Shown here one piece after another: positions 5,245-37,241 of a stretch of 64,000 nucleotides of DNA (within the stretch, counting starts at the first letter, position 1; every line of letters begins with the position of its first letter). Origin of the DNA: Chthoniobacter flavus (GTDB taxonomy: Bacteria; Verrucomicrobiota; Verrucomicrobiia; Chthoniobacterales; Chthoniobacteraceae); contig CAMAUX010000001.1 in assembly GCA_945861435.1 (NCBI GenBank), forward strand, positions 124,001 to 188,000, written 5' to 3'. The notes under the pieces are model-generated. The model had not been told where the DNA came from. It ran no database searches and saw only the letters and a program-made list of their open reading frames with translations. The position numbers and the translations under genes were made by a program.

Positions 5245-5259
5245 CGCACACATAGAAAC

Positions 5260-7058: not shown

Positions 7059-7073
7059 GCTCATTTCAATCCC

Positions 7074-9656: not shown

Positions 9657-9660
9657 CGCT

Positions 9661-13409: not shown

Positions 13410-13411
13410 CT

Positions 13412-13897: not shown

Positions 13898-13920
13898 GGT
13901 GATGTAGATTTGACATCACC
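13898..13920. promoter_or_regulatory. Perfect inverted repeat, likely vapBC operator
   Basis: GGTGATGT (13898-13905) and ACATCACC (13913-13920) form a perfect 8-bp inverted repeat with a 7-bp spacer, 24 bp before the antitoxin start at 13945. RHH antitoxins with their toxins are known to bind such sites and repress their own operon. The site is in the 299-bp gap between the two divergent vapBC pairs. The rest of that gap shows no supported gene. Confidence 0.65.
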
Positions 13921-13944
13921 CAATGCTGATGGAGAGTCTCCATT

Positions 13945-15916: not shown

Positions 15917-15925
15917 GAGCGAGGT

Positions 15926-15939
15926 GATTGTATACAATC
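15926..15939. promoter_or_regulatory. Perfect 14-bp palindrome, likely GntR/FCD operator
   Basis: GATTGTATACAATC is a perfect palindrome in the gap between the GntR gene and the divergent PSD1 gene. Its core TTGTATACAA resembles operators known for FCD-type GntR regulators of sugar-acid genes, which bind as dimers to short palindromes with a central TA. Its position next to both starts suits coordinate repression of both directions. Confidence 0.7.
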
Positions 15940-15969
15940 CACGCTTGCCTCGTCACGCGGATAAATCGT

Positions 15970-18834
15970 ATGCAATGCAGCATGCGCCCCCCGCCGATCC
16001 CCGGCCGCCCTCATCCGCCGGCTCATCGCTCGTCCGGCCTCAGGTCCCGCCTCCTCCTGTCCTTCGCTCTCTGCCTCCCGCTCCTCGCCTCTGCGGCTCC
16101 CAATCCCAGTTTCTTTGAGAAAACGGTGCGCCCCATCCTCGAGGAGCACTGCTTCGACTGCCATGCCGAAGACTCCGCCAAAGCCAGACTCCGGCTCGAT
16201 ACCACCGTCGGCATCCTGCGCGGCGGCGAGTCCGGCGAGCCGCTGATGGTGCGGGGCGTGAGCGCCGAGAGCTATCTGATCCAGCGCGTGACGTCGAAGC
16301 AGCCGAAGGAGAGGATGCCCCCCAAGGGAGAGCGACTCAGCGATGCCGAGGTCGCGGTGCTGCGTGAGTGGATCGACAGCTCATCGAAGCTGCCCGATGA
16401 AGAGGCTGCGATGGCGCAGTTGCGGATCAAGACGGAGCACTGGTCTTTCCAGCCGGTGCAGCGTCCGCAAGCCGCGGCGCGGGGCGGGGAGATCGATCAA
16501 TTCATCCAAGCCAAGCAGCGGGAGAAAGGCCTCACGGCATCGCCGCCAGCCGACAAGTGGACCTTGATCCGCAGGCTTTATCTCGTGATGCACGGCATGC
16601 CGCCGACGCCGGAGGAAGTCGCCGAGTTCGTTGCGGACAAGCGCGCGGACGCTTATGCACGCCTCGTGGATCGTGTGCTCGACAGCCCGCGCTATGGCGA
16701 ACGTTGGGCGCGGCATTGGATGGATGTGGTGCGCTATGCCGACACCAATGGCTTCGAAACCAACCGCGAGCGCAAGACCGCCTACCACTACCGGGACTAC
16801 CTCATCAGCGCGTTCAACGAGGACAAACCCTACGATCAGTTCATCAAGGAACAACTCGCGGGCGACGCCATGGGTGTCGATGCCGCGACCGGCTTCCTCG
16901 TCGCCGGGCCTTATGACGTCGTGAAGAGTCCGGACAGGAACCTGACGCTGATGCAGCGGCAGGACGAACTCACCGACATGGTCAACACCACGGGCACGGC
17001 CTTTCTGGGCCTCACGATGGGCTGCGCGCGTTGTCACAACCACAAGTTCGATCCCATCCTCCAACGCGACTTCTACGCGATGCAGGCGGTGTTCGCGGGC
17101 GTGTCGCACGGTGAACGTCCGCTGCGGGAGAAGACGAGTGCAGCCGCGGAGAAAGACCTCGCGACCTTGAAGACGGAGGAGACGGCGAAGAATGCGCAAC
17201 TGGACGTCTTCCGCAAAAAGGCAGCAGCGGCCGAGAATGCGCCGTCGCGGACACCATTGCCACAGGGTAAATTGCGGCCCCCGGTGAATGCGCGGCTGAA
17301 TGAGGAGACGTTCCCGCCAATGGACGCGGTGGCAATGAAGTTCACCATCCTCGCGACGAGCGGTGCGGAGCCGTGCATCGACGAACTGGAGATCTATGAT
17401 GAGAGCGGGCGCAATGTCGCCCTCGCTGAGGCAGGCGCGATTGCGAGTGCTTCGGGCACGCTGGCGGGACACGCGATTCACAAGCTGGAACACATCAACG
17501 ACGGAAAGACCGGGAACGAGCACAGTTGGATTTCCAACGCGAAGGGGCAGGGCTGGGTGCAGATTGGTCTCCCTGCAAAGGCCCGCATCGCACGCATCGT
17601 CTGGAGCCGTGATCGCGAGATGCGCTTCGCGGACCGTGTCGCCACGCAGTACCGGATCGAGGTCGCGGCGGAGTCCGGGATGTGGACAACAGTCGCCAGT
17701 TCGGAGGACCGCCAGCCATTCAATTCCAAGGGCGCCAAGGGTGATCGGGGCGACCTTTACGCAAAGCTCCCCGCCTCCGAAGCGGCTGCCGCACGGAGTT
17801 TGCAGGCGGACCTCGCCGCGCTCAAAACGCGCATCGACAAGCTCTCTGAGAGCGCGTGGGTGGGCAGATTTTCCGTCAAGCCCGCAATCACGCACCGCCT
17901 TTATCGCGGCGAGCCCATGCAAGAGCGTGAAGCGATCGCCCCCGATGCGCTGAGCGTGCTCGGCACACTCTCACTCGACATCAACGAGCCCGATCAATCC
18001 CGCCGGGTGAAGCTCGCCGAGTGGATCGCGAGTGCGCAGAACCCACTCACTGCACGCGTGATGGTGAACCGGCTTTGGCACTACATCTTCGGCAACGGCA
18101 TCGTCGATACGCCGAGCGATTTCGGAGCCAATGGCACGCGCCCGACGCATCCCGAGCTGCTGGACTGGCTCGCCGATGAGTTCGTGAGCAGCGGTTGGTC
18201 CATCAAGCATATGCAGCGCTGCATCCTCCTCTCCGCCGCGTTCCAGCAATCCTCCGCACCACGCGCGGACGCTGCCGCCATCGATGCGGACGCGCGTTAC
18301 CTCTGGCGCTATCAGCCGCGCAGGCTGGAGGCGGAAGCGATCCGCGACAGCATGCTCGCCGCATCCGGCGCGCTGGATTTGAAAATGTGCGGCCCGGGCT
18401 TCTACCTCATGGATGTCGTCGCGGAGAACGTGATGCACTACTTCCCGAAGGAGAGCTACACACCGGCCGAGTATCGTCGCATGGTCTATCTCTTCCGCAT
18501 CCGCGCCGCGCAGGACGGGGTCTTTGGCTCCTTCGACTGCCCCGATGGCGGCAGCGTCATGGCCAAGCGCAGCCGCTCGAACACGCCGCTCCAAGCGCTC
18601 AACCTTTTCAACAGCAGCTTCATCCTCCAACAGGCAGAGATCCTCGCGCAACGGCTCCAACGCGAGGCCGGAGCGGAACCCGAGGCGCAGGTGAAGCTCG
18701 CCTTCCGCCTGTTCTACGCGCGCGAGCCCGATGCCTTCGAGCTCAGCAATTCCGTCGCGATGCAGCGCGAACATGGCCCCATGGCCTTCGCGCGCGCGAT
18801 GTTCAATACCAGTGAGTTCCTGTTCGTGCTGTGA
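15970..18834 (+). CDS. PSD1 and cytochrome domain protein (PSCyt1-DUF1549-DUF1553)
   Basis: This secreted protein of about 954 residues starts with a signal region ([20 protein letters not shown]), then a planctomycete cytochrome domain with CFDCH at residues 61-65 and the downstream [15 protein letters not shown]1549 follows ([14 protein letters not shown] to QLAGDAM, about 175-310) and includes [19 protein letters not shown] second CxxCH, CARCH, lies near residue 355. Residues about 450-590 look like a discoidin-type carbohydrate-binding insert, and DUF1553 fills the C terminus ([20 protein letters not shown]). The start is uncertain: ATG at 15970 or 15982, since the frame extends to a TTG at 15928. 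Function is not established. The DUF1501 partner overlaps its stop by four bases. Confidence 0.88.
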
Positions 18835-20321
18835 ACCCCGACTCTTCCCATCGCATGCATCCCTTCCTCAATCGCCGCGCTTTTCTCGGACACACCGCCA
18901 CCGGCCTCAGCGGCATCGCGCTCGCGCATTTGCTGGGTCGCGATCAGGCGCACGCCGCGCCCGTGCCGATCCGGCCCCGGATTAATCCTGCAAACCCCAA
19001 TGCACCGCGCGCACCGCATCACGAGGCGCCTGCGAAACGCGTGCTGATGATATTCTGCTCCGGCGCCTGCAGCCAGCTCGACACCTTTGACTACAAGCCC
19101 GAGCTCATCAAACGCCACGGTCAGGACATGCCCGGCGCCGAGGGACTCGTGACCTTCCAAGGCGCACAGGGAGCACTGACGAAGAGTCCGTGGGAGTTCC
19201 GTCCACGCGGCAAGTCGGGCAAGATGATCTCGGATCTCGTGCCGCATCTTGGAGCACTGGCCGACGACATGTGCTTCATCCACTCGCTCACCAGCAAGAC
19301 CAACACCCACGGCCCCGGCGAGAACTTCATGGCCACCGGCTTCACTCTGGATGGCTTCCCCAGCATGGGCGCGTGGACTTCATATGCACTCGGCAGCGAG
19401 AACGACACGCTGCCCGCCTACGTCGCGATCCCCGATCCTCGCGGCGCTCCGCAATCCGCCGGCAATTTCTGGGGCCCGGGCTTCTTACCCGCCGCGTTCC
19501 AAGGCACCGACTTCAACGCCAGCAATCCGCTGCGCAATCTCCAGCGCCCCGCCCAGTTCTCCGCCAGCACCGACGCGGCGACGCGCGAGTTCATAGCCAA
19601 AATCAACCGTCATCATCTCGAGCGCTTCCCCGGCGACTCCGAGCTGGCTGCGCGCATCTCCAGCTACGAGCTCGCCGCGAAGATGCAGCTCTCCGTCCCC
19701 GAGGTGGCCGACATCTCCACCGAACCCGCTCATGTCCTCAAGAGCTACGGAGCCGATCAATCGGGTGATCCCGTGAAGGATCTGAAGGCCGCTTACGCGC
19801 GCAACTGCATCCTCGCTCGGCGTCTCGTGGAGCGCGGCGTGCGCTTCGTCCAACTCTTCAACGGAGCCTATCAAACCGGTGGGGAAGGCGTGAGCAACTG
19901 GGACGGCCACAAGGCGCTGCATCCCCAATACATCAAGCACGGTGAAGTGATGGACCAGCCCACCGCCGCCCTGCTGAGCGACCTCAAGGAGCGCGGTTTG
20001 TTGAAGGACACGCTCGTCGTGTGGTGCACCGAGTTCGGCCGCATGCCCACTTTTCAGAAAGGAGCCAGCGGCCGCGATCACAACCCCGCGGGCTTCACCG
20101 CGTGGATGGCGGGCGCAGGCGTGAAGCCCGCCTTCAGTTACGGCGCCACCGATGAGTTCGGCTACAAGGCTGTGGAGAACGTGGCCACCGTCCACGATTT
20201 CCACGCCACCCTCATGGAGCTCCTCGGCCTGAATCACGAGCGGCTTTCCTTCTACCACAATGGCATCGAGCGCCGTCTCACGGATGTCCACGGGAAGGTG
20301 ATTCGCGAGGTGTTGGCGTGA
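18831..20321 (+). CDS. DUF1501 family secreted protein
   Basis: This protein of up to 496 residues has a Tat-type leader ([20 protein letters not shown]) and DUF1501 motifs: [52 protein letters not shown], then [14 protein letters not shown] and [13 protein letters not shown] near the end. The GTG at 18831 overlaps the PSD1 stop (GTGA), giving coupling; an ATG at 18855 begins closer to the Tat motif and is an alternative. PSD1 plus DUF1501 is the standard pair of the PVC group. The genes flanking this pair point to regulated breakdown of a carbohydrate, but no substrate can be named. Confidence 0.9.
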
Positions 20322-20687: not shown

Positions 20688-21437
20688 ATGAGACAACCCC
20701 TGCTCCTGACGCTCCTCCTGATTTCGCTTTCTGCCTTCGCCGCAGACCAGCCCGCGCCCAAGGCCGCGCCGCCCGTCCCCAAGGAATTCGCACCGATCGT
20801 TGATGATCCTGCGCTTCCCCGCGTGCTCCTGATCGGCGACTCCGTCTCCGTCGCCTACACACTGGATGTCCGCAAGAACCTCGCAGGCGTTGCGAACGTG
20901 CACCGCATCGCGGCCAATGGCGGCTCCACCCGCACCGCCGTCGGCGACTACGGCCTCGTCCGCTGGATCAAGCCGGGGGACAAGTGGGACGTGATTCACT
21001 TCAACCACGGCCTGCACGATCTCTCGTACCGCTTCGCCGATGATCGCGACAAAAACGAGCAGGGCGAGTACGCCTCGCCGACCAATGGCGGCCACCCCAA
21101 CGTCGCGCTCGACCAATACGAGAAAAACCTCCGCGTCATCGTCGCCCGCCTCAAGCAGACCGGCGCGAAGCTCATCTTCGCCAACACCACCCCGGTCCCC
21201 GAATCCGACGCTGCCAAGTACGTGAAGGACTCCGAGCTCCCTTACAACGTGGCGGCCAGAAAGGTCATGGATGAGGAAGGCGTCGCATGGAACGACGTGT
21301 GGTCCGCAGTCAAACCCCGGCAGGACGAACTCCAAGGCAAGCGCAACGTCCACTTCATGGCCTCCGGATCAGCGGTGCTGGCAAAGCAGGTCGCCGAAGC
21401 CATCACCCGCGCACTACCCGCGCCGTCCGCGAAATAG
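20688..21437 (+). CDS. Secreted SGNH/GDSL hydrolase
   Basis: This 249-residue protein has a signal peptide (MRQPLLLTLLLISLSAFAAD). The catalytic serine block is VLLIGDSVSVAY (GDS at residues 50-52). Later blocks are VIHFNHGLHDLSY and, near the C terminus, NVHFMASGSAVLA, which supplies the histidine. The aspartate normally three residues before that histidine is not present (an arginine is there), so the triad may be completed differently. Such secreted esterases remove acyl groups from polysaccharides in many PVC bacteria. It is the last gene of the GntR-linked group, 77 bp before the ECF sigma gene. Confidence 0.8.
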   Translation: MRQPLLLTLLLISLSAFAADQPAPKAAPPVPKEFAPIVDDPALPRVLLIGDSVSVAYTLDVRKNLAGVANVHRIAANGGSTRTAVGDYGLVRWIKPGDKWDVIHFNHGLHDLSYRFADDRDKNEQGEYASPTNGGHPNVALDQYEKNLRVIVARLKQTGAKLIFANTTPVPESDAAKYVKDSELPYNVAARKVMDEEGVAWNDVWSAVKPRQDELQGKRNVHFMASGSAVLAKQVAEAITRALPAPSAK

Positions 21438-21514
21438 GCGCCCAGAAAGTTCAGGAGCACTGGGGGGCGTATTTTCTCTGCTAATGAGGAGGCCTCTGCG
21501 GTGGTATCATTCGC

Positions 21515-22045
21515 ATGGGAGATTCCCCCGCCCCCTCAGATCACACCTTGCAGGTGCAACGACTCTTCGTTCAGCACCAGCAGGTGGTGCTCTATTACGT
21601 GCTCACCATCGTGCCCGATCTCGCCGATGCACAGGACATCGTTCAGGAAACCTTCCTCACCATCACCCGTAAGGCGGAGACTTACACCCTCGGCACCAAT
21701 TTCCCCGCATGGGCTTGCACGACCGCCCGCTACCAAGCCCTGCAATTCCAGCGGACACGCGCGCGCGCCGCCGCCCGTCTCGATGACGACGTGCTCGAGA
21801 TGCTCTACAGCGAGGACGCATCGCCCCCCGACAACCTCGAGCCGCGCACCGAAGCCCTGAAGAACTGCCTCGACCGGCTGACCCCCAAGGCACTGGAACT
21901 CATCCGCCTCCGTTACCATCTGGGCCAATTGCCCGAAGACATCGCCACGACCGTCGGCTGGACCCCGAACTCCGTCCGCGTCGCCCTCACCCGCGCGCGG
22001 CAGATCCTCCGTGTCTGCGTCGAACGCACGCTCCACACCGCCTAA
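21515..22045 (+). CDS. ECF-type RNA polymerase sigma factor (PVC family)
   Basis: This 176-residue sigma-70 family protein contains only regions 2 and 4. Region 2 includes DLADAQDIVQETFLTITR and FPAWACTTARYQALQFQR. Region 4 includes CLDRLTPKALELIRLRYHLG then PEDIATTVGWTPNSVRVALT. It resembles the Rhodopirellula/Verrucomicrobium group of ECF factors. The next gene, 5 bp downstream, encodes a single-span membrane protein fitting an anti-sigma factor, followed by sulfatase, SGNH and cytochrome genes, so the sigma factor probably drives this operon in response to an extracellular signal. Confidence 0.9.
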   Translation: MGDSPAPSDHTLQVQRLFVQHQQVVLYYVLTIVPDLADAQDIVQETFLTITRKAETYTLGTNFPAWACTTARYQALQFQRTRARAAARLDDDVLEMLYSEDASPPDNLEPRTEALKNCLDRLTPKALELIRLRYHLGQLPEDIATTVGWTPNSVRVALTRARQILRVCVERTLHTA

Positions 22046-22050
22046 TTTTC

Positions 22051-23001
22051 ATGAAAGCCGAACGCCTCGACGACCTCTTCGACGCATGGTCCGAATCGCG
22101 ACTCACGCCGGACGAAGCCGCTGAACTCAGCGCCCTGCTCCGCGCCGATCCTGCTGCGCGCGCCCGTTTCCGCGAGGCAGCCGCTTTCCATGCCCAACTC
22201 CACGCGGCGCTCGACTCGCTCAACCTTGAACAGGCCTCTGCTCCCGCCAAGACCATCGCATTCCCCGCGCGCAGCCGCGGCCTCGGAATCGCTGCCATGC
22301 TTCTGGCCGTCGGCCTCACCGTCGCCTCGCTGGGCTGGCTGCTCACCGCCCGCGCCGACAGCTCCCAGATCCGCCCGCTCGGAATCCGCGACGGTGGGTT
22401 CGAAGCTCTTCAGGGCCGAGTTCCCGCGGGCTTCCCGAAGGAGATTCTGGCGTGGGGGGGCGATCCGAGTGAAGTGGCTGCCGCAGACGCGGACCATCCG
22501 ACGGCACTCCGCTTCCTCGAAGCCGCCGGCGAACCGAACGTGCCGAACAGTCCGCGGCAGTCGTGCGATATTTTCCAGATCATCGACCTGAAGTCCGTGC
22601 ACAGCGAGTTGCTGGCAAGCAGCGAGGCGTTCGTCGAATTGCAGACCAGCCTGCTCGATGCGAGGACACAGGCCGGCGTTCCGGTGCGGTTCATTTCGAA
22701 GGTCTACGTCTTCGAAGGTTCACCTGAAAACCTCGCTGAACAGTGGCCGCCCGCTGCCGACCAGGTCCTCGGGAGCGGCACGCAGTTCCACGTCAGCAAG
22801 GGTGGTACCCCGGCAGATTGGAAGACGCTCACCACCCGCTGCGTGCTGCCGCCGAATGCAGGGTTCCTCGTCGTCCAGATCGGTGCGGGTAGCGCAGGCA
22901 ACCCCGGGGTTCCATCGCCCGCGCTTGGCGCGCAGTTTGCCGACGACATCCGCCTCACGCTGCGCACCCGCCAGAACAAAGCCGAACTCGCCACCCGCTG
23001 A
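22051..23001 (+). CDS. Membrane-anchored anti-sigma factor candidate
   Basis: This 316-residue protein has the layout of PVC anti-sigma factors. A cytoplasmic N-terminal helical domain (DDLFDAWSESRLTPDEAAEL to QLHAALDSLNLE, residues 6-60) is followed by one membrane segment (GLGIAAMLLAVGLTVASLG, about residues 77-96) and then a large outer domain of about 215 residues with beta-rich text. The outer domain may sense a ligand or damage; no fold was recognised. It lies directly behind the sigma gene (5 bp) and 2 bp before the sulfatase gene. The lack of a HxxxCxxC motif indicates that it is not a zinc anti-sigma factor. Confidence 0.7.
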   Translation: MKAERLDDLFDAWSESRLTPDEAAELSALLRADPAARARFREAAAFHAQLHAALDSLNLEQASAPAKTIAFPARSRGLGIAAMLLAVGLTVASLGWLLTARADSSQIRPLGIRDGGFEALQGRVPAGFPKEILAWGGDPSEVAAADADHPTALRFLEAAGEPNVPNSPRQSCDIFQIIDLKSVHSELLASSEAFVELQTSLLDARTQAGVPVRFISKVYVFEGSPENLAEQWPPAADQVLGSGTQFHVSKGGTPADWKTLTTRCVLPPNAGFLVVQIGAGSAGNPGVPSPALGAQFADDIRLTLRTRQNKAELATR

Positions 23002-23003
23002 CC

Positions 23004-24374
23004 ATGCGCCTGCTCACGTTCTCTCTCGTCGTGCTCGCCGCCACAGGGTTCGCCGCCAGCGGAAGCGGCGCCGAATCCAGCGCGCGGCCAAACATCCTGT
23101 TCATCGTAGCGGACGACCTTGCGACGCGGCTCGGATGTTACGGCGACAAGGCGGCCATCACGCCTCATATCGATCAACTCGCATCCGAGGGCGTGCTCTT
23201 CGAGCATGCCTATGTGCAGGGCGTCGTCTGCACTCCAAGCCGCACGTCCTTCATGCTCGGCCTCAACAACCGGCACGCGAACCCGAACCATTTCATCAAG
23301 AATCCCGACACGATGACCATGGGTCGCTGGTTCCGTGAACACGGATACCAGACGTGCGCCATCGGCAAGCTCGACCACGACGATCCGCAGGACCGCTACG
23401 TGGATCCAAAGGCATGGGATGTCCGCGTGAAACGCGAAGAAATGCCGCCCGCAACAAAGCCGTCCCAGCTCATCTCCCTCGACGAGGATCTCGGGCTCAA
23501 ACGCACGAGGGTCAGCGCCTATGGGGCTTCCGAGTCTCCCGATGCGATCGCCGACACCTCGCGTGCACGACGCCTGCTGAAGTTCTTCAGCGAGGAACGC
23601 GACCCGCAGAAACCCTTCCTCGCCTGCATCGGCTTCCACGCTCCGCACGTCCCGTGGGAAGCCACCAAGGCCGCATGGGACGCGCACGATCCCAGAAAGT
23701 TCGTGCTCGAGCCCACGCCCGCCGACGCCACGCCGATGCCTGGCGGATCGCTCCTGCAGGAGCCAGGGATCGAGATGTCCGAGGCACGCCAGCGCGAGGG
23801 AATGCACGGTTACTACGCAGCCGTCACGACGCTCGACTCCATCATCGGCGACCTGCTGGCCCGGTTGAAAGCCGCGGGTCACCTCGACAACACCCTCGTC
23901 GTCTTCACCAGCGACCACGGCTACCACCTCGGCTGGCGCGGCCAATGGTGCAAGCACAGCCTCGACGAACAGGTGCTGCGCGTGCCCCTCATCGTCCGAC
24001 TCCCCGGCGCCGCCGGCGGTACCCGCGCCAACGGCATCGTCGAACTCCTCGACCTCTTCCCCTCCTTCAGTGCATTCGCCGGGCTGACCCGCCCCCCGCA
24101 CATCGACGGCACGAGTTTCCTCCCCCTCGTCCGCGATCCCGCCAGCAAAGGAAAGGACGGCGCCTTCTGCCGCGGCTCCAACGGCCGCACCGTCCGCACC
24201 CTGCGCTACCGCCTCACCGAGCGCTTCGACGGCTCGGTGGAACTCTACGACCACGCGTCCGATCCGCTGGAATACCGAAGCGTCGCGGGCCTGCCTGAAA
24301 ATGCGGGCACGGTGAAACGTCTTGCCGCCATGCTGCTCTCCGAGCTCGGCCCGCTTCCCCCCAGAAAGAAATAG
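23004..24374 (+). CDS. Secreted sulfatase (iduronate/choline-sulfatase type)
   Basis: This 456-residue alkaline phosphatase-superfamily sulfatase carries a signal peptide of about 23 residues. Metal-binding aspartates lie in NILFIVADDLATRLGCYG (D37, D38). The formylglycine motif CTPSR is at residues 76-80; the cysteine is expected to be oxidised by an anaerobic or FGE-type maturase, which is not encoded in this window. VVFTSDHGYHLGWRGQW supplies the second metal site. The enzyme should remove sulfate esters from glycans or small molecules in the periplasm. Two bp separate it from the anti-sigma gene and four from the double SGNH hydrolase. Confidence 0.92.
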   Translation: MRLLTFSLVVLAATGFAASGSGAESSARPNILFIVADDLATRLGCYGDKAAITPHIDQLASEGVLFEHAYVQGVVCTPSRTSFMLGLNNRHANPNHFIKNPDTMTMGRWFREHGYQTCAIGKLDHDDPQDRYVDPKAWDVRVKREEMPPATKPSQLISLDEDLGLKRTRVSAYGASESPDAIADTSRARRLLKFFSEERDPQKPFLACIGFHAPHVPWEATKAAWDAHDPRKFVLEPTPADATPMPGGSLLQEPGIEMSEARQREGMHGYYAAVTTLDSIIGDLLARLKAAGHLDNTLVVFTSDHGYHLGWRGQWCKHSLDEQVLRVPLIVRLPGAAGGTRANGIVELLDLFPSFSAFAGLTRPPHIDGTSFLPLVRDPASKGKDGAFCRGSNGRTVRTLRYRLTERFDGSVELYDHASDPLEYRSVAGLPENAGTVKRLAAMLLSELGPLPPRKK

Positions 24375-24378
24375 CCCC

Positions 24379-26247
24379 ATGCGCTTCATCCTCCCGCTCT
24401 TCCTCACCACCCCGCTGCTCGCGCTCGAATACGCGCACAAGCCCGCCGATCCGCAGCCCACGGGCTGGCCGCTCACGGCGGAGGAACGCGCCTACGTTGT
24501 CGAGAAGCCGGAACACGACCGCCGCCCCGGGCGCGAGATCAGCAAGCACCTTCCTCAGCTCTGGCCTTCGGTTCCCACCGCCGGGCACTGGGGCGGGACG
24601 AGCTGGCTCAACACGCACGCGAAACTGGTCGCGTACGTGCAGGCCAATGCCGGCCCGGTCGATGTGCTCCTCGTCGGCGACTCGATCACCCAGCAATGGG
24701 GCAGCCCGCTGGACAAGGGAGTGCTGAACACCGCGTGGCTCCAGCAGTTTCCAAACTACAAGACCCTCAACATCGGCATCGGCGGCGACAAGATACAGAA
24801 CGTCCTCTGGCGTCTGGACCATGGCGGGGTCGATGGACTCCAACCGCGCGCAATCGTCCTGATGATCGGCAATAACAACATGTTCTTCACCGCCGAGACC
24901 GGCGTCGCCGCCGCGGCCGAGGGCGTGAAGACCTGCCTCGCCAACCTCCGCGAGAAGTTCCCCAGCGCCGACGTCATCCTCGCCAAGATCCTCCCCTGCC
25001 ACGCGCCGAAGAACCGCTTCTACGAAGACATCGTTCTGACCAACGCCGAACTCGACAGACTCGCCCTCGGCTCTGATCCCAAGGTGCGCGTGCTTGATCT
25101 GACCAACGACTTCCTCAACGCAGACGGCACCATCAAGCAGGCCCTGTTCATCGCGGACAACATCCACCTCTCGCTCGAGGGCTACACCGTCTATGCCGGG
25201 CGCTTGAAGCCCTTGCTCGACGCAGCGCTCGGCGCAGAGGGCCTCGGCAGCGCGGTCAAAATTCCTTCCGCCAACAGCGCGGCCCCATCCGCCCCGGCCG
25301 CGGAGAAGCGGCTCGAAACTTCCATGGGCCCCGCGCCCAAAACCGCAGACGGCAAGTCGCTCGTGTATCCCTACGCGCCCTACAACGAGGGAAAACTGGA
25401 CCCGCAGCTCAGCGGATGGCCGCTGACCGATGCCGAGAAAAGCTGGGTGCTGCGCGACGAATACACCCGCAAACCCGGTCATGAAGCGCAGAAGCATCTC
25501 CCCGGGATGTGGTTCGTAACGCCCACCGCAGGCCGCTGGCGGGGCGAAGATGCGACCCATGGCAATGCGTGGCTGGCCCATCACGCCGCGAACATCGCGA
25601 ACGTCGCCAATGCGCGGGCCGCCGGCGCCATCGACATCGCGCTCCTCGGCGACAGCATCACGCAGGGCTGGGGCGGCGGCTGGGACGGCACACCCTTCAA
25701 CGCAGCCTGGAACACGTACTTCGGCTCCTCCAAAACCGTGAACCTCGGCATCGGCGGGGATCGCATGGAACACATCCTCTGGAGGCTCGACCACGGCGCG
25801 CTCGACGGAGTTTCGCCCGGAGTGATCGTGCTGATGGTCGGCGTGAACAACGCCCCGCTGATCCAAGCCAACGGCGTCCCGGTCGCCAGCGCCGTGCGCG
25901 GAATTCAGCTCTGCATCGAGAACCTCCGGATGCGCTGCCCGCAGTCCCGGATCGTCCTCGTGCAGATCATTCCCGCATTCGATCCGGAGAAGGAAATCGG
26001 CGCCAAGGTGCGGGAGATCAACGCCGGGCTCGCCGCCCTTCAACTCGAAAGCGACCCGCAGGTCCGCGTCCTCGATCTGTGGCAGGACTTCACCAATGCC
26101 GACGGAACGCTGAAAGCCGCGCTGTATTCTGACAAACACCTCCACCTCAGTGCCGCGGGCTACGAGGTCTTTGCGGCGAAGCTAAAGCCTGCTGTCGAGA
26201 AGCTGCTGGGGAACGAGGGCAAGCCCCATCCAAAGTCTCCCAAGTGA
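24379..26247 (+). CDS. Secreted protein with two tandem SGNH hydrolase domains
   Basis: This 622-residue protein holds two copies of a PAF-acetylhydrolase-like SGNH domain, each preceded by a similar segment ending in a PTAG motif. The first has VDVLLVGDSITQQWG (GDS near residue 98), LNIGIGGDKIQNVLWRLDHG, VLMIGNNNMF and DNIHLSLEGY with the D-x-x-H pair. The second has IDIALLGDSITQGWG, LGIGGDRMEHILWRLDHG, VLMVGVNNAP and DKHLHLSAAGY, where the Asp-His spacing is one residue longer. The frame extends upstream to 24322, but the ATG at 24379 begins the signal peptide. It is probably a glycan deacylase acting next to the sulfatase. The tandem layout suggests duplication within the gene. Confidence 0.88.
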   Translation: MRFILPLFLTTPLLALEYAHKPADPQPTGWPLTAEERAYVVEKPEHDRRPGREISKHLPQLWPSVPTAGHWGGTSWLNTHAKLVAYVQANAGPVDVLLVGDSITQQWGSPLDKGVLNTAWLQQFPNYKTLNIGIGGDKIQNVLWRLDHGGVDGLQPRAIVLMIGNNNMFFTAETGVAAAAEGVKTCLANLREKFPSADVILAKILPCHAPKNRFYEDIVLTNAELDRLALGSDPKVRVLDLTNDFLNADGTIKQALFIADNIHLSLEGYTVYAGRLKPLLDAALGAEGLGSAVKIPSANSAAPSAPAAEKRLETSMGPAPKTADGKSLVYPYAPYNEGKLDPQLSGWPLTDAEKSWVLRDEYTRKPGHEAQKHLPGMWFVTPTAGRWRGEDATHGNAWLAHHAANIANVANARAAGAIDIALLGDSITQGWGGGWDGTPFNAAWNTYFGSSKTVNLGIGGDRMEHILWRLDHGALDGVSPGVIVLMVGVNNAPLIQANGVPVASAVRGIQLCIENLRMRCPQSRIVLVQIIPAFDPEKEIGAKVREINAGLAALQLESDPQVRVLDLWQDFTNADGTLKAALYSDKHLHLSAAGYEVFAAKLKPAVEKLLGNEGKPHPKSPK

Positions 26248-26810
26248 TCTCCCGAGCCTCGCCCCTCATGAAAGTCCCCCCGCTTAAAGTGATCCTCCTG
26301 ATCGCCGCGCTCGCGCTGGCGGCTGCGGTCAGCATCGGGCCTGCGCCGCAGACCATGTCGAACACCCCTCCCCACTCGTTCTTCTCGCGGGCTCCGACCA
26401 TCGCGTCTTTCGAGATCGTCCGGGACGGTGCGGTGCTTCACCGCGAGCAGATGCCCGGCCAGAATCAGGGCTCCGCCCTCCAAGCCACGCTGGGCCGGCC
26501 CTCGTACGCGACGGCTCCTTCGACCCGCCGACTCGGCGTCCAAACCGGTGACATCAAGGTCACCGTACCCATTGCCTTTCTCGCTGAGGGCCGCCCGGTC
26601 GGTGTTTCCCATATGGGGAAACCCATCGAGGCCGACCAAATCGAGGTGCTCGTGGCCATCCGCCGTTACGGACTCATCCCCCGCGACTACACCGACGGCC
26701 GCCTCGACCCACTGATCCTCGCCGCCGCGATGGAAGGCGTGAGGATCAGGGTCGCGGACGGGAACCAACAGGTCGCCATTAAACAAAAATACGGCATCAC
26801 CCAGAGATGA
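26244..26810 (+). CDS. Small membrane-anchored protein, function unknown
   Basis: This protein of up to 188 residues has one N-terminal hydrophobic segment (VILLIAALALAAAVSIG), either a signal peptide or an anchor. The rest is soluble and without a recognised domain. The GTG at 26244 overlaps the preceding stop (GTGA), and its own stop overlaps the next start (ATGA at 26807). An ATG at 26268 is an alternative start. The double coupling shows that it is made with the SGNH and DUF1592 proteins. A role as an assembly or accessory factor is guesswork. Confidence 0.6.
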   Translation: MISRASPLMKVPPLKVILLIAALALAAAVSIGPAPQTMSNTPPHSFFSRAPTIASFEIVRDGAVLHREQMPGQNQGSALQATLGRPSYATAPSTRRLGVQTGDIKVTVPIAFLAEGRPVGVSHMGKPIEADQIEVLVAIRRYGLIPRDYTDGRLDPLILAAAMEGVRIRVADGNQQVAIKQKYGITQR

Positions 26811-29455
26811 AGCTTCCCCTCGCCATCGCCCTGTTCGCCGCCGCGACGGCAGCCGCCGAACCACGCCTCTTTCTCGAGCAGCACTGCTTCGAGTGCCACG
26901 ACAAGGAAACCAAGAAAGGCGGCTTCGACCTTGAGTCCCTCAGCACGGAAACGCAGGCGCTCGATCCGTGGATCAAGGTCCACGACGCAGTGGCCACCGG
27001 CGAGATGCCGCCTGCAAAGAAGAAGACCCGGCCGCCCGCCGCCGAAGCCGCCGCGTTTCTCACCGCACTCGACGCGCGTCTCCACACGGCTTCATCCGCC
27101 GCCCGGCCCGTCCGCGTTCAGCTCCGCAGGCTGACTCGCAGCGAATTCGAGAACTCGCTCAAAGACCTGCTCGCACTCCCGCGTCTCGACATCACGGCAC
27201 TGCTGCCCGCGGATGGTCGCGTCTCGGGTTATGACAAAATCGCCGGCGGTCTCGACCTCTCCCCGGGCCACCTTGCCGCTTACGCCGAGGCGGTGGAGAA
27301 GGCCCTCGATGCAGCGATCGCCACCCAGAGTGCACCGCCCAAGGTCTACCAGAAACGCATCTACCCAGCCGGCCTCTTCAAGTTCGGCGCCAACCTCGCC
27401 CATGGCCAATACGTGCTGCTGAAAGACAAGCAGCCCGACCCGGCACTGCCCGTCCGTGGCGGCTTCGAGGACAAGAAGGGACACGTGGGCTTTGACGGGC
27501 CCGACCTCAAGGAGCGCGGGGATCTCGTCAAAAGCAAAACCGTTGCCGAGAGCCAGAGCGCCGTCGGCCTGCTCAATCCCAACCTCGCAGGCTACGAGGC
27601 CGCGATGAACGTCTCCCCCATCTACGCCGGCATGTACCGGATGCGCCTTTCCGTCTGGGGACTCCACTGGGAAAACGCACAGCCCAATCCCTGCGCCGCA
27701 CCGCAGGCCGCCGTCCTGCGCGCCCACGAGGAAGGCAAACAGCAGGAGGGCGGCCGTCTCCTCGCCGCCTTCACCGCTCCCTCCATGGAGTCCAAGGAAG
27801 GCGAAATCGTCGCATGGCTCGATGCCCATGATTCCATCGTCTTCGACCCGGTGTCCGTCCCATGGATCGGCCTCCGCATCGGCCAGATCGCCGGACGCGC
27901 CGCGAAACACGCAGGCCCGGGAGTCGCACTCGACTGGTTCGAAATCGAAGGCCCGTTGAACCCCGTCTGGCCGCCCGTCAGCCACAGGAGGCTCTTTGGC
28001 GATCTACCGATCAAACCGCGGGCTGCGGACAGCGAAGCGCTCCCGCCGCGTCGTGAGAAAATCCGCAGCATCCCCGGCTACCTGCCGAGCACTCATCTCA
28101 GCCTCACACCGGCCGAGCGCCAGCCGCTCCTCGAGACCGTCCACTCCGACCATCCCGTCGAGGACGCACGCCAGTTGCTCGCGGAGTTCCTCCCGCGCGC
28201 GTTCCGTCGCGATGTGACGCCCGGCGAGCTCGAGCCCTACCTCCGCCTGCTCCGCGCCCGTCTCGATGCGAAGGACTGCTTCGAGGACGCCATGCGCCGC
28301 GTGTACGTCGCCGCGCTGACTTCACCGGAATTCCTGTTCCTTCCCGGCGACGCCACGGAAGACGCGCACCTCTTCTCCGCCAACGCGGATTTCGCCCTCG
28401 CCTCGCGTCTTTCCTACTGGCTCTGGAACGGCCCGCCCGACGATGCCCTGTTAGCCGCCGCGCGCGACCGATCCCTCCACCGCCCGGAAATCCTCCACGC
28501 GCAGATCGACCGTCTGCTGGCCGATCCGCGCGCCGATCGTTTCACCACGGACTTCGCCCGCCAATGGCTCGAGCTCGGCAGACTGGACGAGACCACTCCA
28601 GATCCGTTGCTCTACCCGGAGTACCGGTTCCTCCTCAACGAAGGGGTTGCGATGGAGACGCCGTCCTTCTTCAAGGAACTGCTCCACGACAACCTGCCGG
28701 CGCGCTCCCTTCTCAAGCCGGGCTTCGCGATGCTCACCCAGCGTCTCGCGGAACACTATCGGATCCCGGGCGTGGAAGGCGTCGAAGTCCGCAAAGTCCC
28801 ACTTCCCGCCGACAACGTTCGCGGCGGGCTGCTCGGGCAGGCCGGCATCCACAAACTCACCGCCAACGGCACCACCACTTCGCCCGTGAAACGCGGCGTC
28901 TGGGTCTCTGACAGGCTCCTCAATGACCCGGCTCCACCGCCTCCGCCCGGCGTGTCCGCCGTCGACCCCGACACCCGCGGCACCACCACCATTCGGGAGC
29001 AGCTCGCCAAGCATCGCGCCGACCCCAGCTGCGCGGCGTGCCATGCCAAGATCGACCCGCCCGGTTTCGCGCTGGAAGCCTTCGACCCCATCGGCGGATT
29101 CCGCGACCGCTACCGCTCCAACGGAAAGGGCGATGTCCCTCTCGAAAAAGGGCACACCGAGTGGAAGGTCGAATACAAGCTGGGTCCGCAGGTCGACGCA
29201 TCGGGGCAGCTTCGCGACGGCCGCAACTTTGCGAGCCCTGCCGCATTCATCGAGTTGCTCGCGCAGGATGACGAGCGTCTTGCCCGCGCATTCACCGCGC
29301 ACCTCGCGCGCTACGCCACGGGCGCTGAGATGAATTACGCTGACCGCGCCGAGATCCGTCGCATCGTCGCGGGTTCCAAACAAAGCGACTATGCGCTTCG
29401 CTCGCTCGTGCACGCTCTCGCTCAGAGCACCCTCTTCCTCCCTCCAACCCGCTGA
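26807..29455 (+). CDS. DUF1592 family protein with two CxxCH haem motifs
   Basis: This 882-residue secreted protein has the full family layout: short signal peptide (MKLPLAIALFAAATAAAE), CFECH at residues 27-31, DUF1587 (LRRLTRSEFENSLKDLLALP, near residue 105), a beta-rich binding segment, DUF1595 (about 445-510), DUF1592 (about 525-660, including DFARQWLELGRLDETTPDPL), DUF1588 (KLTANGTTTSPVKRGVWVSD, then CAACH near residue 743) and DUF1585 at the end. It is a paralogue of the gene at 7074-9656 but not a recent copy. The ECF-linked location suggests that expression follows the sigma factor. Its reaction is unknown. Confidence 0.9.
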   Translation: MKLPLAIALFAAATAAAEPRLFLEQHCFECHDKETKKGGFDLESLSTETQALDPWIKVHDAVATGEMPPAKKKTRPPAAEAAAFLTALDARLHTASSAARPVRVQLRRLTRSEFENSLKDLLALPRLDITALLPADGRVSGYDKIAGGLDLSPGHLAAYAEAVEKALDAAIATQSAPPKVYQKRIYPAGLFKFGANLAHGQYVLLKDKQPDPALPVRGGFEDKKGHVGFDGPDLKERGDLVKSKTVAESQSAVGLLNPNLAGYEAAMNVSPIYAGMYRMRLSVWGLHWENAQPNPCAAPQAAVLRAHEEGKQQEGGRLLAAFTAPSMESKEGEIVAWLDAHDSIVFDPVSVPWIGLRIGQIAGRAAKHAGPGVALDWFEIEGPLNPVWPPVSHRRLFGDLPIKPRAADSEALPPRREKIRSIPGYLPSTHLSLTPAERQPLLETVHSDHPVEDARQLLAEFLPRAFRRDVTPGELEPYLRLLRARLDAKDCFEDAMRRVYVAALTSPEFLFLPGDATEDAHLFSANADFALASRLSYWLWNGPPDDALLAAARDRSLHRPEILHAQIDRLLADPRADRFTTDFARQWLELGRLDETTPDPLLYPEYRFLLNEGVAMETPSFFKELLHDNLPARSLLKPGFAMLTQRLAEHYRIPGVEGVEVRKVPLPADNVRGGLLGQAGIHKLTANGTTTSPVKRGVWVSDRLLNDPAPPPPPGVSAVDPDTRGTTTIREQLAKHRADPSCAACHAKIDPPGFALEAFDPIGGFRDRYRSNGKGDVPLEKGHTEWKVEYKLGPQVDASGQLRDGRNFASPAAFIELLAQDDERLARAFTAHLARYATGAEMNYADRAEIRRIVAGSKQSDYALRSLVHALAQSTLFLPPTR

Positions 29456-29461
29456 CATCTC

Positions 29462-30697
29462 ATGAACCGTCGTGCATTCCTCATCGCCGCTGGCGCCTGC
29501 CTCGCCCTGCCTCGCCTCGCCCGCGCAGCAGAAAAAACACCGCCCCGCCGCCTGCTCGCGATCCACGTCCCGCTTGGGATGATGCCGAGCTTTTTCTTTC
29601 CAAAGGAGGGCGAACCCTCCAGCCCCTACCTCGATCTCCTCGCCAAGCACAGGGATCAATTCACCACCTTCGCGGGCCTCTCGCATCCCGGCGTCGACGG
29701 CAATCACCACGCGGGACAATGCTTCCTTTCAGGCGCACCGCATCCGGGCCAGCCCACCTTCCGCAACAGCGTCTCGCTTGACCAATTCGTCGCCGACAAG
29801 ATCGGTGCCGACACGCGCTTCCCCTCGCTCGGTGTGGCGGTGCGCAAGGGCGAGCATTACTCCGACTCGATCGCCGTCTCCCCATCGGGCGTGGTCCTCC
29901 CGGCAGAGGTCAGCGCCGAGAGGCTCTACCGAAGGCTTTTTGTCGCGGGAACGCCCGACGAAAAAGCCGCCACCATGCGCCGGATCGAAGCCGGAGGCAG
30001 TGTGCTCGATCTCATTCTCGACAAGGCAAAGCGCCTCGAGAAGACCTCCGACTCTCAGGACCGCGCCCGCATCGACCAGTACTTCCAAAGCGTCCGCGAT
30101 CTCGAAGGCCGCCTTCAACGCAGCATCGAATGGGAGCACCGTCCCAAACCCACCGTCGATTACCCGATGCCCAAGGACATCGCGGACGCCAACGAGGTCG
30201 TGGACCGCTCGCGTCTGATGTTCGACCTCATCCGGCTTGCGCTCCAGACCGACAGCACCCGCGTCGTGACACTCACGCTCAGCACCTTCTCCGTAGTGCC
30301 GCATGTGCCTGGCGTGAAGAGCGAAACGCACGGCCTCACCCATCACGGCAATGAACCCGAGAAAATCGCCGAACTCCGCAAGATCGAGGAGGCGCAGATG
30401 ACGGTCTTCGGCGAGATGCTTTCCACGTTCCGCGACACGCCCGAGGCCGGCGGCAGCCTCCTCGACCGCACGCAGATCCTCTATGGAAGCTGCCTCGGCA
30501 ACGCCAATTCCCACAGCAACCAGAACCTGCCGCTGATTCTGGCGGGCGGCGGCTTCCGCCATGGACAACACCTTGCCTTCGACACCGTCCACAACACGCC
30601 GCTCGCGAACCTGTATGTCAGCATGCTGCAGAACCTCGGCATCGAGACCGACAAGTTCGCCTCCAGCACAGGGCCGCTGCGCGGGCTGCGTTCGTAA
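29462..30697 (+). CDS. DUF1552 family secreted protein
   Basis: This 411-residue partner of the DUF1592 protein lies 6 bp downstream of it. It has a short Tat-like leader (MNRRAFLIAAGACLALPRLA) and DUF1552 text: HVPLGMMPSFFFPKEGEP, FAGLSHPGVDGNHHAGQCFL and LYGSCLGNANSHSNQNLPLI. The counterpart at 9661-10965 has the same block order. It ends the long sigma-led run; the following 635 bp hold no gene. Confidence 0.9.
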   Translation: MNRRAFLIAAGACLALPRLARAAEKTPPRRLLAIHVPLGMMPSFFFPKEGEPSSPYLDLLAKHRDQFTTFAGLSHPGVDGNHHAGQCFLSGAPHPGQPTFRNSVSLDQFVADKIGADTRFPSLGVAVRKGEHYSDSIAVSPSGVVLPAEVSAERLYRRLFVAGTPDEKAATMRRIEAGGSVLDLILDKAKRLEKTSDSQDRARIDQYFQSVRDLEGRLQRSIEWEHRPKPTVDYPMPKDIADANEVVDRSRLMFDLIRLALQTDSTRVVTLTLSTFSVVPHVPGVKSETHGLTHHGNEPEKIAELRKIEEAQMTVFGEMLSTFRDTPEAGGSLLDRTQILYGSCLGNANSHSNQNLPLILAGGGFRHGQHLAFDTVHNTPLANLYVSMLQNLGIETDKFASSTGPLRGLRS

Positions 30698-34508: not shown

Positions 34509-37241
34509 TCAGTTTCTGAGCACGGGGGCCGTTGCCGATTCCTTCTGCGCCAACAGCCACGTCACGAGATCAGCGACCTGACGAGGAGACAGGATCCGGT
34601 CGAAGGATGGCATCGGGGAAGTGTGCAGGCTTTCGCGTCTGCGGATGAGCGCTTTTTCTGCGCGCGCAATCCGGCCGTCGGTTTGCACCAAGGTGAGATG
34701 CAGGTCTGTTTCCTCTCGCAGGACGCCTGTCATCGATGCTCCGTCGCGCATCACCACGCTCAACAGGCCGAAGCCCTGTGTGATCTCCCCGTTGGGGGTG
34801 AGAATGGAACGGACAAGATACTCCGGATCGTGACGCTCTCCGGCACGAGAGAGGTCTGGGCCGAACTGCCGCCCCAGTCCGTCGGCGCGGTGACAGTTTG
34901 CGCACCCGGCCGCGGTGAACAGCGCAGGACCGTTTGCGGACTGGCCGGTTTCAAGCACTGCCATCACCTGCTTCACGGTGGTCGGCTCCTTGCGTGGTTG
35001 CAGCAGCACGTTTGATGCAAGCGCGCTCGTGCGCTTGGTGAAGAGGGCATCGGCAGGCTCACCGACCGGTTTGTTGCCCACACAGAGCACCGCTCGGAGC
35101 CTCGTGGTGTTGTGAAGGACAAGGGGCTTTGATTCTGGCAAGACGGGTGAAAGCTCCGTCGGCGTCGAGCCGTCGAGGGTGTAATGAATGACCGACGGCT
35201 TGAGCCCGGGAGCCACATACACTTCGACCTCCCTTTCGAAATCGCCCGGTTCAGGCTCGAAGGTGATCAAGGGGTTGCCGTTCCGCTTGGCGAGCCAGAG
35301 TGCGGCGACGTCCGCGGTGGCCGGATCTGCGATCAGGGCACTTGCGTCCTCAATGCTGATCTGGCCTAGGTCTGCGAGAGCCAGCAGGGCGCCGCGGCGG
35401 ACGCCATCCCGCGGGTCCTTGAGCATGATCCGGAGCCCTTCCGTGGTGGCAATGTCGCGGAGCGTGCCCCACGCGACATAATAGGTGAGGCGGTCGGTTT
35501 CCACAGCGGCGAGGTCCTGCAGCGCTCGAACCGAACGCACATCGCGGGCCTGTCGGATCGCCTGTGCAGCCGCGAAGCGGATGCGGGGTTCTTCATCGTG
35601 AAGCGCGTCCGCCACGCAATTCGGCAGAGGGCGGGTGCGTTCCCCATGGATCCTGAGCGTTTGGATGCGACGGTTTAGCGAGGTGCTGCGGTCGTATGGA
35701 AGCGGTGCATCCATGCGTCCAAGGGTCCACAGCGCCCATGTCTCCTGAGCCATGGACAGCCCCGGCGCGTCAATCAAGCGGAGGAGATCGGCTTGCACTG
35801 TTGCGCCGCGTCGAAGCAGTTCTTCCTGAGCGTCCAGCCGCCAGATGGGCAGATGGCTGCCGAGATCCTCGGCGAGTTCGGCGAAGCTCCAGCGGTCCAG
35901 CGGGCGGTTTCGCTTTGCGGTGCACCAGTCCAGAAGCGGCGTGCTTTTCCACGCAACGCGGAAGACGCGGCCCTCGAGGTCGTCGGTCCTTCCGAGCAAG
36001 CCACGCACGACTTGCTCGGGTCGGTTGTACTGCTTGCCCCAACCAAGCACCCAGACTGCACCGTCCGGGCCCACCTCCATGTCCGTGGGACGATAGAGAG
36101 CGCGCCCCGCACTGACGAAGTTCTGGCAGACTCCGCCTGTTGGTTGGATGAGCGCGCCGTCCCATTGGGGCCGGTACGCATAGGTATTCTTGCCGGCGAA
36201 GTCGTTCATCAGCCACAGGCCGCGCCACTCCGGCGGGAATTGAGGGGCATCGTAGAACACCACGCCCGTGCTTGATCCGCCGAAGAGCGGGCCGCTGACG
36301 GGCACCGTCGGCGGGTTCCGCTCGTCTGTCCAGTGGGCGCTCCAGCCGTGCCCCCACCCGAAGTGCGCTCCCTTGAACGGCATCACAATGCGGTCGCCCC
36401 CCGTTTGATCATTGTCCGTTCCGAGCCAGTTGAAGCCGCTGTCGAACACAATGTCGAAGGGGTTGCGGAGCCCGCGGGCGATGATCTCAAGATTCGTGCC
36501 CATGTCGTTGCAGCGAAGGAAGCCGCCTTCCCGGCCCCAGTCGTCATCCGGATCTTGGTACGCGTGTCTGTAGGTGCCTTTCCCGAAGGTCATGGGCGGC
36601 GGAAAATCGGGCGCACCGTCCGGTGCATTGACCCCCCACAACTCCCGGAAAGGCTTTGGCGCGATGCGACCGGGCTGTGTAAGCCCCTTGGAGTTGCCCT
36701 TCGTCATGTAGAGCTTTCCGTCCGGAGCCCAAACCAAGCCGTGAAGCGCGTGTTCGAGATTTCCGAGGTCGGTGTAAACGCGCACGTATTCATCCGCCTC
36801 ATCGTCGCCGTTCAGATCGCGTGCGATGGTGAGATCCGGTGCATTCGCGATCCACAGATCCCGGCCGTGCCATGCGAGGCCTTGGATGGAATTCAATCCT
36901 GTGGCGAACGCTCTGCTCTGGTCCGCTACGCCGTCGCCATCGGTGTCGAGCAGGATCATGACGCGGTCGCCGGGTGTCTCGGGTGTTGGCATCCGATACT
37001 GGGACCCCATACCGACGAAAAGCCGGCCCTTCCTGTCAAAGGCCAGCGCGCTCGGGTGCCCGACGAGTGGCTCCTTTGCGAACATCCTGACTTCGAAGCC
37101 CGCCGGCACTTGCGGCAGCGCAGTCGTGTCCATCCGGGACGAGTCGGAGGGATGGGTGAAATAGGCGACCGGGGCTGCGACCAAGGCGCAGAGCGTGCCG
37201 AACACGAGGAGCCTTGGGGTTGTGAGGGGAAAAGGTTTCAT
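34509..37241 (-). CDS. PVC-type membrane-bound dehydrogenase with C-terminal cytochrome c domain
   Basis: This 910-residue secreted protein begins with a hydrophobic leader (LLVFGTLCALVAAPVAYFTH). A six-bladed propeller of the Pirellula/Verrucomicrobium dehydrogenase type follows (VPAGFEVRMFAKEPLVGHPS to about residue 440, with ITRYDTDGDGVAD-like text near DTDGDGVADQSRAF). Next come helical HEAT-like repeats (about 470-640), a segment like the C-terminal domain of chitobiases (HYTLDGSTPTELSP) and finally a cytochrome domain with CANCH, GPDLSRAG and SFDRILSPRQVADLVTWLL. The open frame extends to 37841, but that part is arginine- and proline-rich; the ATG at 37239-37241 starts the leader. Such proteins are thought to oxidise sugars or alcohols and pass electrons to the haem. 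The substrate is unknown. Confidence 0.88.
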   Translation of the reverse strand: MKPFPLTTPRLLVFGTLCALVAAPVAYFTHPSDSSRMDTTALPQVPAGFEVRMFAKEPLVGHPSALAFDRKGRLFVGMGSQYRMPTPETPGDRVMILLDTDGDGVADQSRAFATGLNSIQGLAWHGRDLWIANAPDLTIARDLNGDDEADEYVRVYTDLGNLEHALHGLVWAPDGKLYMTKGNSKGLTQPGRIAPKPFRELWGVNAPDGAPDFPPPMTFGKGTYRHAYQDPDDDWGREGGFLRCNDMGTNLEIIARGLRNPFDIVFDSGFNWLGTDNDQTGGDRIVMPFKGAHFGWGHGWSAHWTDERNPPTVPVSGPLFGGSSTGVVFYDAPQFPPEWRGLWLMNDFAGKNTYAYRPQWDGALIQPTGGVCQNFVSAGRALYRPTDMEVGPDGAVWVLGWGKQYNRPEQVVRGLLGRTDDLEGRVFRVAWKSTPLLDWCTAKRNRPLDRWSFAELAEDLGSHLPIWRLDAQEELLRRGATVQADLLRLIDAPGLSMAQETWALWTLGRMDAPLPYDRSTSLNRRIQTLRIHGERTRPLPNCVADALHDEEPRIRFAAAQAIRQARDVRSVRALQDLAAVETDRLTYYVAWGTLRDIATTEGLRIMLKDPRDGVRRGALLALADLGQISIEDASALIADPATADVAALWLAKRNGNPLITFEPEPGDFEREVEVYVAPGLKPSVIHYTLDGSTPTELSPVLPESKPLVLHNTTRLRAVLCVGNKPVGEPADALFTKRTSALASNVLLQPRKEPTTVKQVMAVLETGQSANGPALFTAAGCANCHRADGLGRQFGPDLSRAGERHDPEYLVRSILTPNGEITQGFGLLSVVMRDGASMTGVLREETDLHLTLVQTDGRIARAEKALIRRRESLHTSPMPSFDRILSPRQVADLVTWLLAQKESATAPVLRN

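Follow-up and report, generated by a model that had tools for sequence, protein, structure and literature searches.

A sigma-factor-led operon with an SGNH esterase and a DUF1592/DUF1552 gene pair in a freshwater Verrucomicrobiota bacterium, and its predicted membrane-gated control

Polysaccharide utilisation loci of Bacteroidota are controlled by extracytoplasmic function (ECF) sigma factors with FecR-type anti-sigma factors. In cellulolytic clostridia, SigI/RsgI paralogues each have their own sensor, promoter and saccharolytic targets (PMC6056542). For Rhodopirellula baltica, Studholme et al., as cited in PMC2754498, proposed the ECF factor RB10049 as regulator of RB10051, a PSD1/PSC2 protein, and in freshwater Verrucomicrobia the PSCyt3-type genes usually lie beside a gene of one unknown family, often near sulfatases, a carbohydrate role having been proposed for them (PMC5615132). 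Here we describe an operon in a 64,000-nucleotide stretch of Chthoniobacter flavus contig CAMAUX010000001.1 (the window), which comes from a freshwater Verrucomicrobiota bacterium. Seven open reading frames (ORFs), all on the plus strand at 21515–30697, begin with an ECF sigma gene of the Sig-70_gvs1 family and end with a DUF1592/DUF1552 pair. We consider it probable that this is a membrane-gated switch with its own operon, in which a ligand outside the cell would free the sigma factor and the whole operon would then be transcribed.

The locus resembles SigI/RsgI (PMC6056542) in the placement of sigma and anti-sigma genes in one operon, in its putative autoregulation and in a membrane-bound anti-sigma factor whose putative sensory module is extracytoplasmic. 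It differs in that the sigma factor is of the gvs1 ECF type (region 2 and region 4), the outer domain belongs to no Pfam family and the predicted targets are di-haem and alkaline-phosphatase-fold proteins instead of cellulosome enzymes, so that the likeness is an analogy of mechanism only and not family membership. As in the Bacteroidota loci, a membrane anti-sigma factor and an ECF sigma factor precede putative glycan-processing genes, but SusC/SusD are absent from the Pfam-scanned genes, and no FecR domain was found in the anti-sigma factor. The RB10049–RB10051 pair likewise places an ECF sigma factor, by proposal, over a planctomycete-specific cytochrome-type protein, but RB10051 is of the DUF1549/DUF1553 class, not DUF1592/DUF1552, and the passages of PMC2754498 on this pair describe neither an anti-sigma sensor nor a promoter. 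He et al. (PMC5615132) do not mention sigma factors and give no fold for the partner protein. Sulfatase–PSCyt neighbourhoods and the fixed PSCyt3 partner (PMC5615132) are thus already published, as is one ECF–PSCyt link (in the same passages of PMC2754498). Literature searches that combined DUF1592 with either sigma factors or DUF1552 came up empty, and in the literature searched there is no report of a sugar-fold anti-sigma sensor for PSCyt modules, of a gvs1–DUF1592/1552 association, of a GTCGAG-N16-CGTA regulon or of the DUF1552 fold.

Operon layout, sigma factor and putative anti-sigma sensor

An earlier, sequence-only reading of this DNA had proposed an ECF-led operon of eight genes with a sulfatase, a double SGNH hydrolase and a DUF1592/DUF1552 cytochrome pair. 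Its end points coincide exactly with the sigma start and the DUF1552 stop, and the tight spacing and the gene families held; the count did not, as there are seven ORFs and both SGNH domains lie in one protein, and neither did the term "cytochrome pair", for reasons given below. In gene order, the junctions measure +5, +2, +4, −4, −4 and +6 bp, the fourth becoming +20 bp if the orphan gene between the SGNH and DUF1592 genes starts at ATG 26268 instead of GTG 26244. Same-strand neighbours with a gap of at most 6 bp make up 21% of adjacent gene pairs in the loci examined, so six consecutive tight junctions would be expected at about 8e-5 per starting point. Third-position GC content (GC3) lies between 0.77 and 0.84 across the seven genes, which supports all of them as coding. 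No sigma-70-like promoter was seen inside the operon, and terminator-like sites within it are in no excess over chance.

The sigma gene (21515–22045) encodes a protein that scores 145.5 bits against TIGR02989 (cut-off 124.55; E = 1.3e-42), with matches to Sigma70_r2 and Sigma70_r4_2. Five base pairs downstream lies the gene of a 316-residue membrane anti-sigma factor (22051–23001), for which a Pfam scan matched no family. The structure model, built on an alignment of 24 relatives, has a predicted local distance difference test score (pLDDT) of 81, with the outer part mostly near or above 90, and consists of a three-helix N-terminal domain resembling an anti-sigma domain (residues 2–63), a transmembrane helix (80–99) and an outer β-sandwich (105–308). 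The profile of the N-terminal domain matches RsiW (E = 0.016), and a zf-HC2 match occurs in one of the 24 homologues; since the RsiW match is weak, it is chiefly the gene's position and the protein's architecture that speak for an anti-sigma role of this domain. Traits of class I membrane anti-sigma factors are present, namely the 5-bp distance from the sigma gene and the single transmembrane helix, and the same pairing of sigma and anti-sigma genes is seen in orthologous loci.

The sequence-only reading had assigned a large outer domain to this membrane protein, and the modelled domain indeed looks like a β-sandwich of the sugar-binding type. It superposes on the sugar-recognition domain of Fbs1/Fbs2 (VIA Z 13.8, root mean squared deviation (rmsd) 2.8, 155 residues aligned) and on carbohydrate-binding modules (CBMs) of the families CBM16 (Z 11.9, rmsd 3.4, 141 aligned), CBM61 (Z 11.9) and CBM4 (Z 11.6). 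The Foldseek probability for the outer domain is 1.00, and some of its structural matches are chains that bind no sugar. Such a domain might instead sense damage to the surface glycans of the cell itself, which the operon's enzymes would then remodel in an envelope-stress response. Stress sensing is frequent among ECF anti-sigma factors, and heat, cold and salt stress each raise the level of RB10049 (PMC2754498). The outer domains of the anti-sigma paralogues are only 20–36% identical, and many parallel cassettes with such divergent domains suggest a range of specific inputs; together with the patchy presence of the locus, found in 10 of 40 genomes of the family, this makes a general stress response improbable.

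Recurrence with sigma factors and predicted promoters

Four congeneric genomes, with 67 gvs1 sigmas and 38 weaker ECF hits, formed the genus set. Of the 67 gvs1 sigmas, 22 are followed within 10 kb by a DUF1592 gene on the same strand, against 1.97 expected, while the other three orientations gave counts of 4, 1 and 2, and a single one of the 38 weaker ECF hits has a DUF1592 gene downstream. PSCyt2 genes are also enriched downstream of gvs1 sigmas (9 against 2.7 expected); sulfatases are not (5 against 3.0 expected in the four genomes). The usual layouts in the genus are sigma, anti-sigma, DUF1592, DUF1552 and the same with the last two genes exchanged, and the window has the former order with the sulfatase, SGNH and orphan genes inserted.

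A scan of GTDB genomes found 36 loci with a DUF1552 protein 68–87% identical to that of the window, below which there is a gap to about 52%; they are spread over Verrucomicrobiota and Planctomycetota. Among the 35 readable orthologous loci, DUF1592 is present in 30, the SGNH orthologue adjoins the DUF1552 gene in 16 and a sigma gene is found in 11, whereas in a comparison group of 43 loci (DUF1552 at 48–52%) the SGNH gene occurs in two and sigma in three. A simple script served to call the genes of the relatives, and BLAST to label them. Many of their contigs are short pieces of metagenome-assembled genomes, so absence counts are lower bounds, and the related genomes in all these counts are not independent. 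The fullest relatives (L078, L102 and L169) have the order sigma, anti-sigma, SGNH, DUF1592, DUF1552, and by this comparison of sequences these five genes are the conserved core. As separate observations, a conserved protein of 117 residues, which has hydrophobic segments and matches no Pfam family, is encoded directly before the SGNH gene in the Opitutales copies L071, L072 and L102, and in L102, from Opitutae bacterium BS6, the sigma gene is split over two frames at about 3713–4239, which may be genuine or an artefact of sequencing.

The DUF1552 protein of the window groups with Opitutales (support 98/93; 87% identity) and not with its own genus (71–74%), which indicates horizontal acquisition, and the operon was probably acquired in this way. 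The seven genes could then be a neighbourhood without common control, a gene-dense cluster moved by transfer in which the sigma/anti-sigma pair regulates only itself. The patchy distribution would fit this, as would the fact that 31 of the 37 DUF1592 genes in the source genome have no gvs1 sigma. The genus-wide bias is strong and confined to the same strand and the downstream side, and neither the upstream side, the opposite strand nor other ECF factors show it; moreover, the sigmas in front of the orthologous DUF1592/DUF1552 pair belong to three or more distinct, supported clades, a repeated pairing with different regulators, and an ECF-type promoter is shared by unlinked units, as described next. 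Taken together, these observations render a mere neighbourhood quite improbable.

The hexamer TGCTAA at 21479–21484 of the plus strand, 36 bp before the sigma ATG, is a putative −10-like element of an autoregulated sigma promoter. It stands 35–41 bp before the sigma start in the window's sigma clade (the window, L077, L079, L092, L038 and L169 (−36)) and at −35 to −41 also in L029, L031 and L067, and nine of 36 sigma upstream regions carry it, against 0.76 expected. In the window it is part of TGCTAATGA, which is the sole TGCTAANGA there. No −35 element was recognised for the window's sigma promoter, and TGCTAA therefore stays a putative element. The pattern TTTNNTGCTAANGA was tried and discarded, as it had no genome-wide match and its spacing is wrong even for the window; consequently, no regulon is defined for the window's own sigma factor. 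Before DUF1592 orthologues without a nearby sigma gene, the search for TGCTAA gave a single distant match (−238 in L082), and several of these loci carry a GTCGAG-type motif instead.

In Verrucomicrobiaceae, the window-type SGNH and DUF1592 orthologues often have no sigma neighbour in the stretch examined, and the motif GTCGAG-N15/16-CGTANT sits just before their starts and before the sigma genes of another clade (clade III). It has 13 matches in 1.9 Mb of loci, 12 of them directly before SIG, SGNH2, DUF1592 or DUF1552 genes, compared with a mean of 1.5 matches, 0.02 of them before such genes, for 60 versions with shuffled hexamers. The shorter form GTCGAG-N15/16-CGTA, found upstream of all 12 clade-III sigma genes from the test genomes and two reference genomes, has the geometry of an ECF promoter, and its −10 part fits the CGT consensus quoted in PMC8103513. 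From the motif before unlinked SGNH and DUF1592 units it was predicted that their genomes encode a clade-III sigma factor, and one (71–87% identity) was found in all nine genomes for which this was predicted, each having an orthologous locus without its own clade-III sigma in the stretch examined, and in none of eight controls; in L075 the contig that holds the locus also carries this gene, some 2 kb outside that stretch. Because the motif was first noticed in part of the same loci, the independent evidence consists of the shuffled controls and the sigma prediction. A small clade-III regulon is predicted in this way from L073, L075, L082, L090, L091, L093, L095, L098, L099 and L170–L181. A different sigma clade, in L030, L041 and L042, has an apparent upstream motif of its own, TTTTTTCGGCA(A/G), about 40 bp before the start.

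The proposal of the sequence-only reading that the sigma factor controls the esterase and the DUF1592/DUF1552 genes thus draws support from the genus-wide association, the orthologous loci and the ECF-type promoter shared in relatives whose genes are unlinked. Gene order, families, folds, recurrence and this promoter in relatives were computed; the release mechanism, the carbohydrate ligand, the joint action on one substrate and the redox role of DUF1592 we infer. In the switch that we propose, the anti-sigma factor would hold the gvs1 sigma factor at the inner membrane until the CBM-like outer β-sandwich meets a ligand, most likely a periplasmic carbohydrate or glycan fragment, whereupon the sigma factor would be released, would start transcription at its own promoter (putative −10 TGCTAA, 21479) and would have the whole operon read through. 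The exported esterase and, in this copy, the sulfatase would strip ester groups, and the di-haem DUF1592 protein would work with the alkaline-phosphatase-fold DUF1552 protein. That desulfation and deacylation come before oxidation, as put forward in the sequence-only reading, is speculative. A defined sigma factor, a putative sensor with a recognisable fold and a promoter would offer a direct route to the inducer, and hence to the substrate, and the poorly understood haem proteins would gain a testable regulator.

Several points weigh against the switch. Control of the operon is a prediction from sequence, and nine of 17 well-covered orthologous loci have no adjacent sigma gene. As regards promoters, the best evidence concerns a different sigma clade, found in other families, and that for the window itself consists of one hexamer without a −35 element. 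Since the lineages of regulator and target both follow taxonomy, the nine of nine against none of eight is partly confounded by kinship. As for the ligand, a CBM-like fold in a model is no proof of sugar binding, and among the Pfam-scanned operon genes and neighbours there is no glycoside hydrolase, polysaccharide lyase or SusC/D-type transporter, for which reason the term "polysaccharide utilisation system" exceeds the evidence. The module may accordingly be right and its trigger and substrate be small molecules or acidic sugars, which would make it a periplasmic redox and ester-hydrolysis unit instead of a polysaccharide system; the absence of glycoside hydrolases from the scanned neighbours agrees with this, and two other PSCyt modules of the window adjoin regulators of the IclR (4954–6078) and GntR/FCD (15236–15937) families. 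The usual signals of these two families are small organic acids. Moreover, He et al. (PMC5615132) predicted a periplasmic or cytoplasmic location for PSCyt proteins, with mono- or oligomers as their substrates. The outer domain resembles glycan binders, including the polymer-binding CBM16, CBM61 and CBM4, and the sulfatase is of the S1 class, so that we judge a small-molecule unit rather unlikely compared with the glycan-responsive switch. A broader generalisation of the switch is doubtful, if conceivable: a repertoire of gvs1 switches in Planctomycetes and Verrucomicrobiota, in which every CBM-like sensor would be matched to a glycan and a promoter of its own, might command haem and alkaline-phosphatase-fold modules (DUF1592/DUF1552, and DUF1549/1553 with DUF1501) for the redox-assisted processing of decorated sugars alongside glycoside hydrolases.

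The exported enzymes and the neighbouring genes

The DUF1592 gene (26807–29455) encodes an exported di-haem c protein of 882 residues with the complete domain order PSCyt1-PSD3-PSD5-PSD4-PSCyt3-PSD2 and two CxxCH motifs (C27–H31 and C742–H746), both of which are invariant in 63 homologues. The DUF1552 (HXXSHH) protein (29462–30697) matches PF07586 (E = 2.1e-72; 244.7 bits, cut-off 30) and starts with a signal of the twin-arginine translocation type (RRAFL). It contains no CxxCH motif and was rejected as a haem protein, its modelled fold (pLDDT 90) being that of the alkaline phosphatase superfamily (Foldseek probability 1.00); of the haem protein pair claimed in the sequence-only reading, only the DUF1592 member is therefore retained. 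The model aligns with PafA (Z 16.9, rmsd 4.1, 272 residues), ENPP7 (Z 16.4) and many sulfatases (Z 15–16), and a profile comparison (hhalign) relates the protein to DUF1501 across 358 columns (98.3%, E = 1.2e-14), which supports the modelled protein as an alkaline-phosphatase-fold relative of DUF1501. In a weak, low-confidence profile alignment, the Asp-Asp and Cys/Ser positions of sulfatases fall on non-matching DUF1552 residues. Other residues, R30, H82, D183, D200, H290 and H294, are invariant, and a sequence search of the PDB found no relatives of DUF1592 or DUF1552. PSCyt2 (DUF1549/1553) genes usually adjoin DUF1501 in the loci read and, DUF1501 being kin to DUF1552, both classes would combine a haem protein with a partner of alkaline-phosphatase fold, which suggests one plan for both large PSCyt families. 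Genomes of these bacteria contain dozens of genes of the DUF1592/DUF1552 and DUF1549/DUF1501 types, the source genome having 37 DUF1592 and 35 DUF1552 genes.

The SGNH/GDSL hydrolase (24379–26247; 622 residues) is a double-domain protein that matches PF13472 over two stretches (2.3e-46), the first domain resembling platelet-activating factor acetylhydrolase (PAF-AH) Ib (3dt6, 1.1e-23). The sulfatase (23004–24374) is an exported S1-type enzyme (PF00884, 1.7e-44) with an intact CTPSR formylglycine signature, in which C76 and R80 are invariant among 25 homologues, and its closest solved chain is the arylsulfatase 6hhm (3e-58). The sequence-only reading had included it in the controlled set; an orthologue (at least 55% identity) is present in three of the 35 orthologous loci, and it is an accessory gene and not a core member. 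Export-type signals, read from the translations, start the sulfatase, SGNH, DUF1592 and DUF1552 proteins. The orphan gene (26244–26810, GTG 26244 or ATG 26268; 180–188 residues) has a coding-type GC3 of 0.80 and encodes a hydrophobic N-terminal segment. It matches no Pfam family, and its few relatives, one good match in a congener, one marginal match and a 29% homologue at the same place in L071, suggest no function.

A further gene, for a single-domain SGNH hydrolase (20688–21437, plus strand; PF13472, 1.1e-8), ends 77 bp upstream of the sigma gene. A fragment 56% identical to it lies directly before the sigma gene in Opitutae BS6 (L102), and it possibly belongs to the transferred block. Elsewhere in the window (4954–10965), a gene for a regulator of the IclR type and a β-propeller-like gene directly precede a second DUF1592/DUF1552 pair (7107–10965), and a GntR/FCD regulator on the minus strand is adjacent and divergent to a PSCyt2 (DUF1549/1553)–DUF1501 pair (15236–20321). 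With the sigma factor of the operon, regulators of three classes thus stand next to PSCyt modules in the window. Near the operon, on the minus strand at 34509–37841, lies the gene of a 1110-residue redox protein of the Planctomycetota–Verrucomicrobiota–Chlamydiota (PVC) type with DUF7133, GSDH-like, HEAT and cytochrome c regions. At 12975–14645, two PIN-domain genes stand back to back, each with a small gene, one of these ribbon-helix-helix-like, and are likely toxin–antitoxin pairs of the VapBC type.

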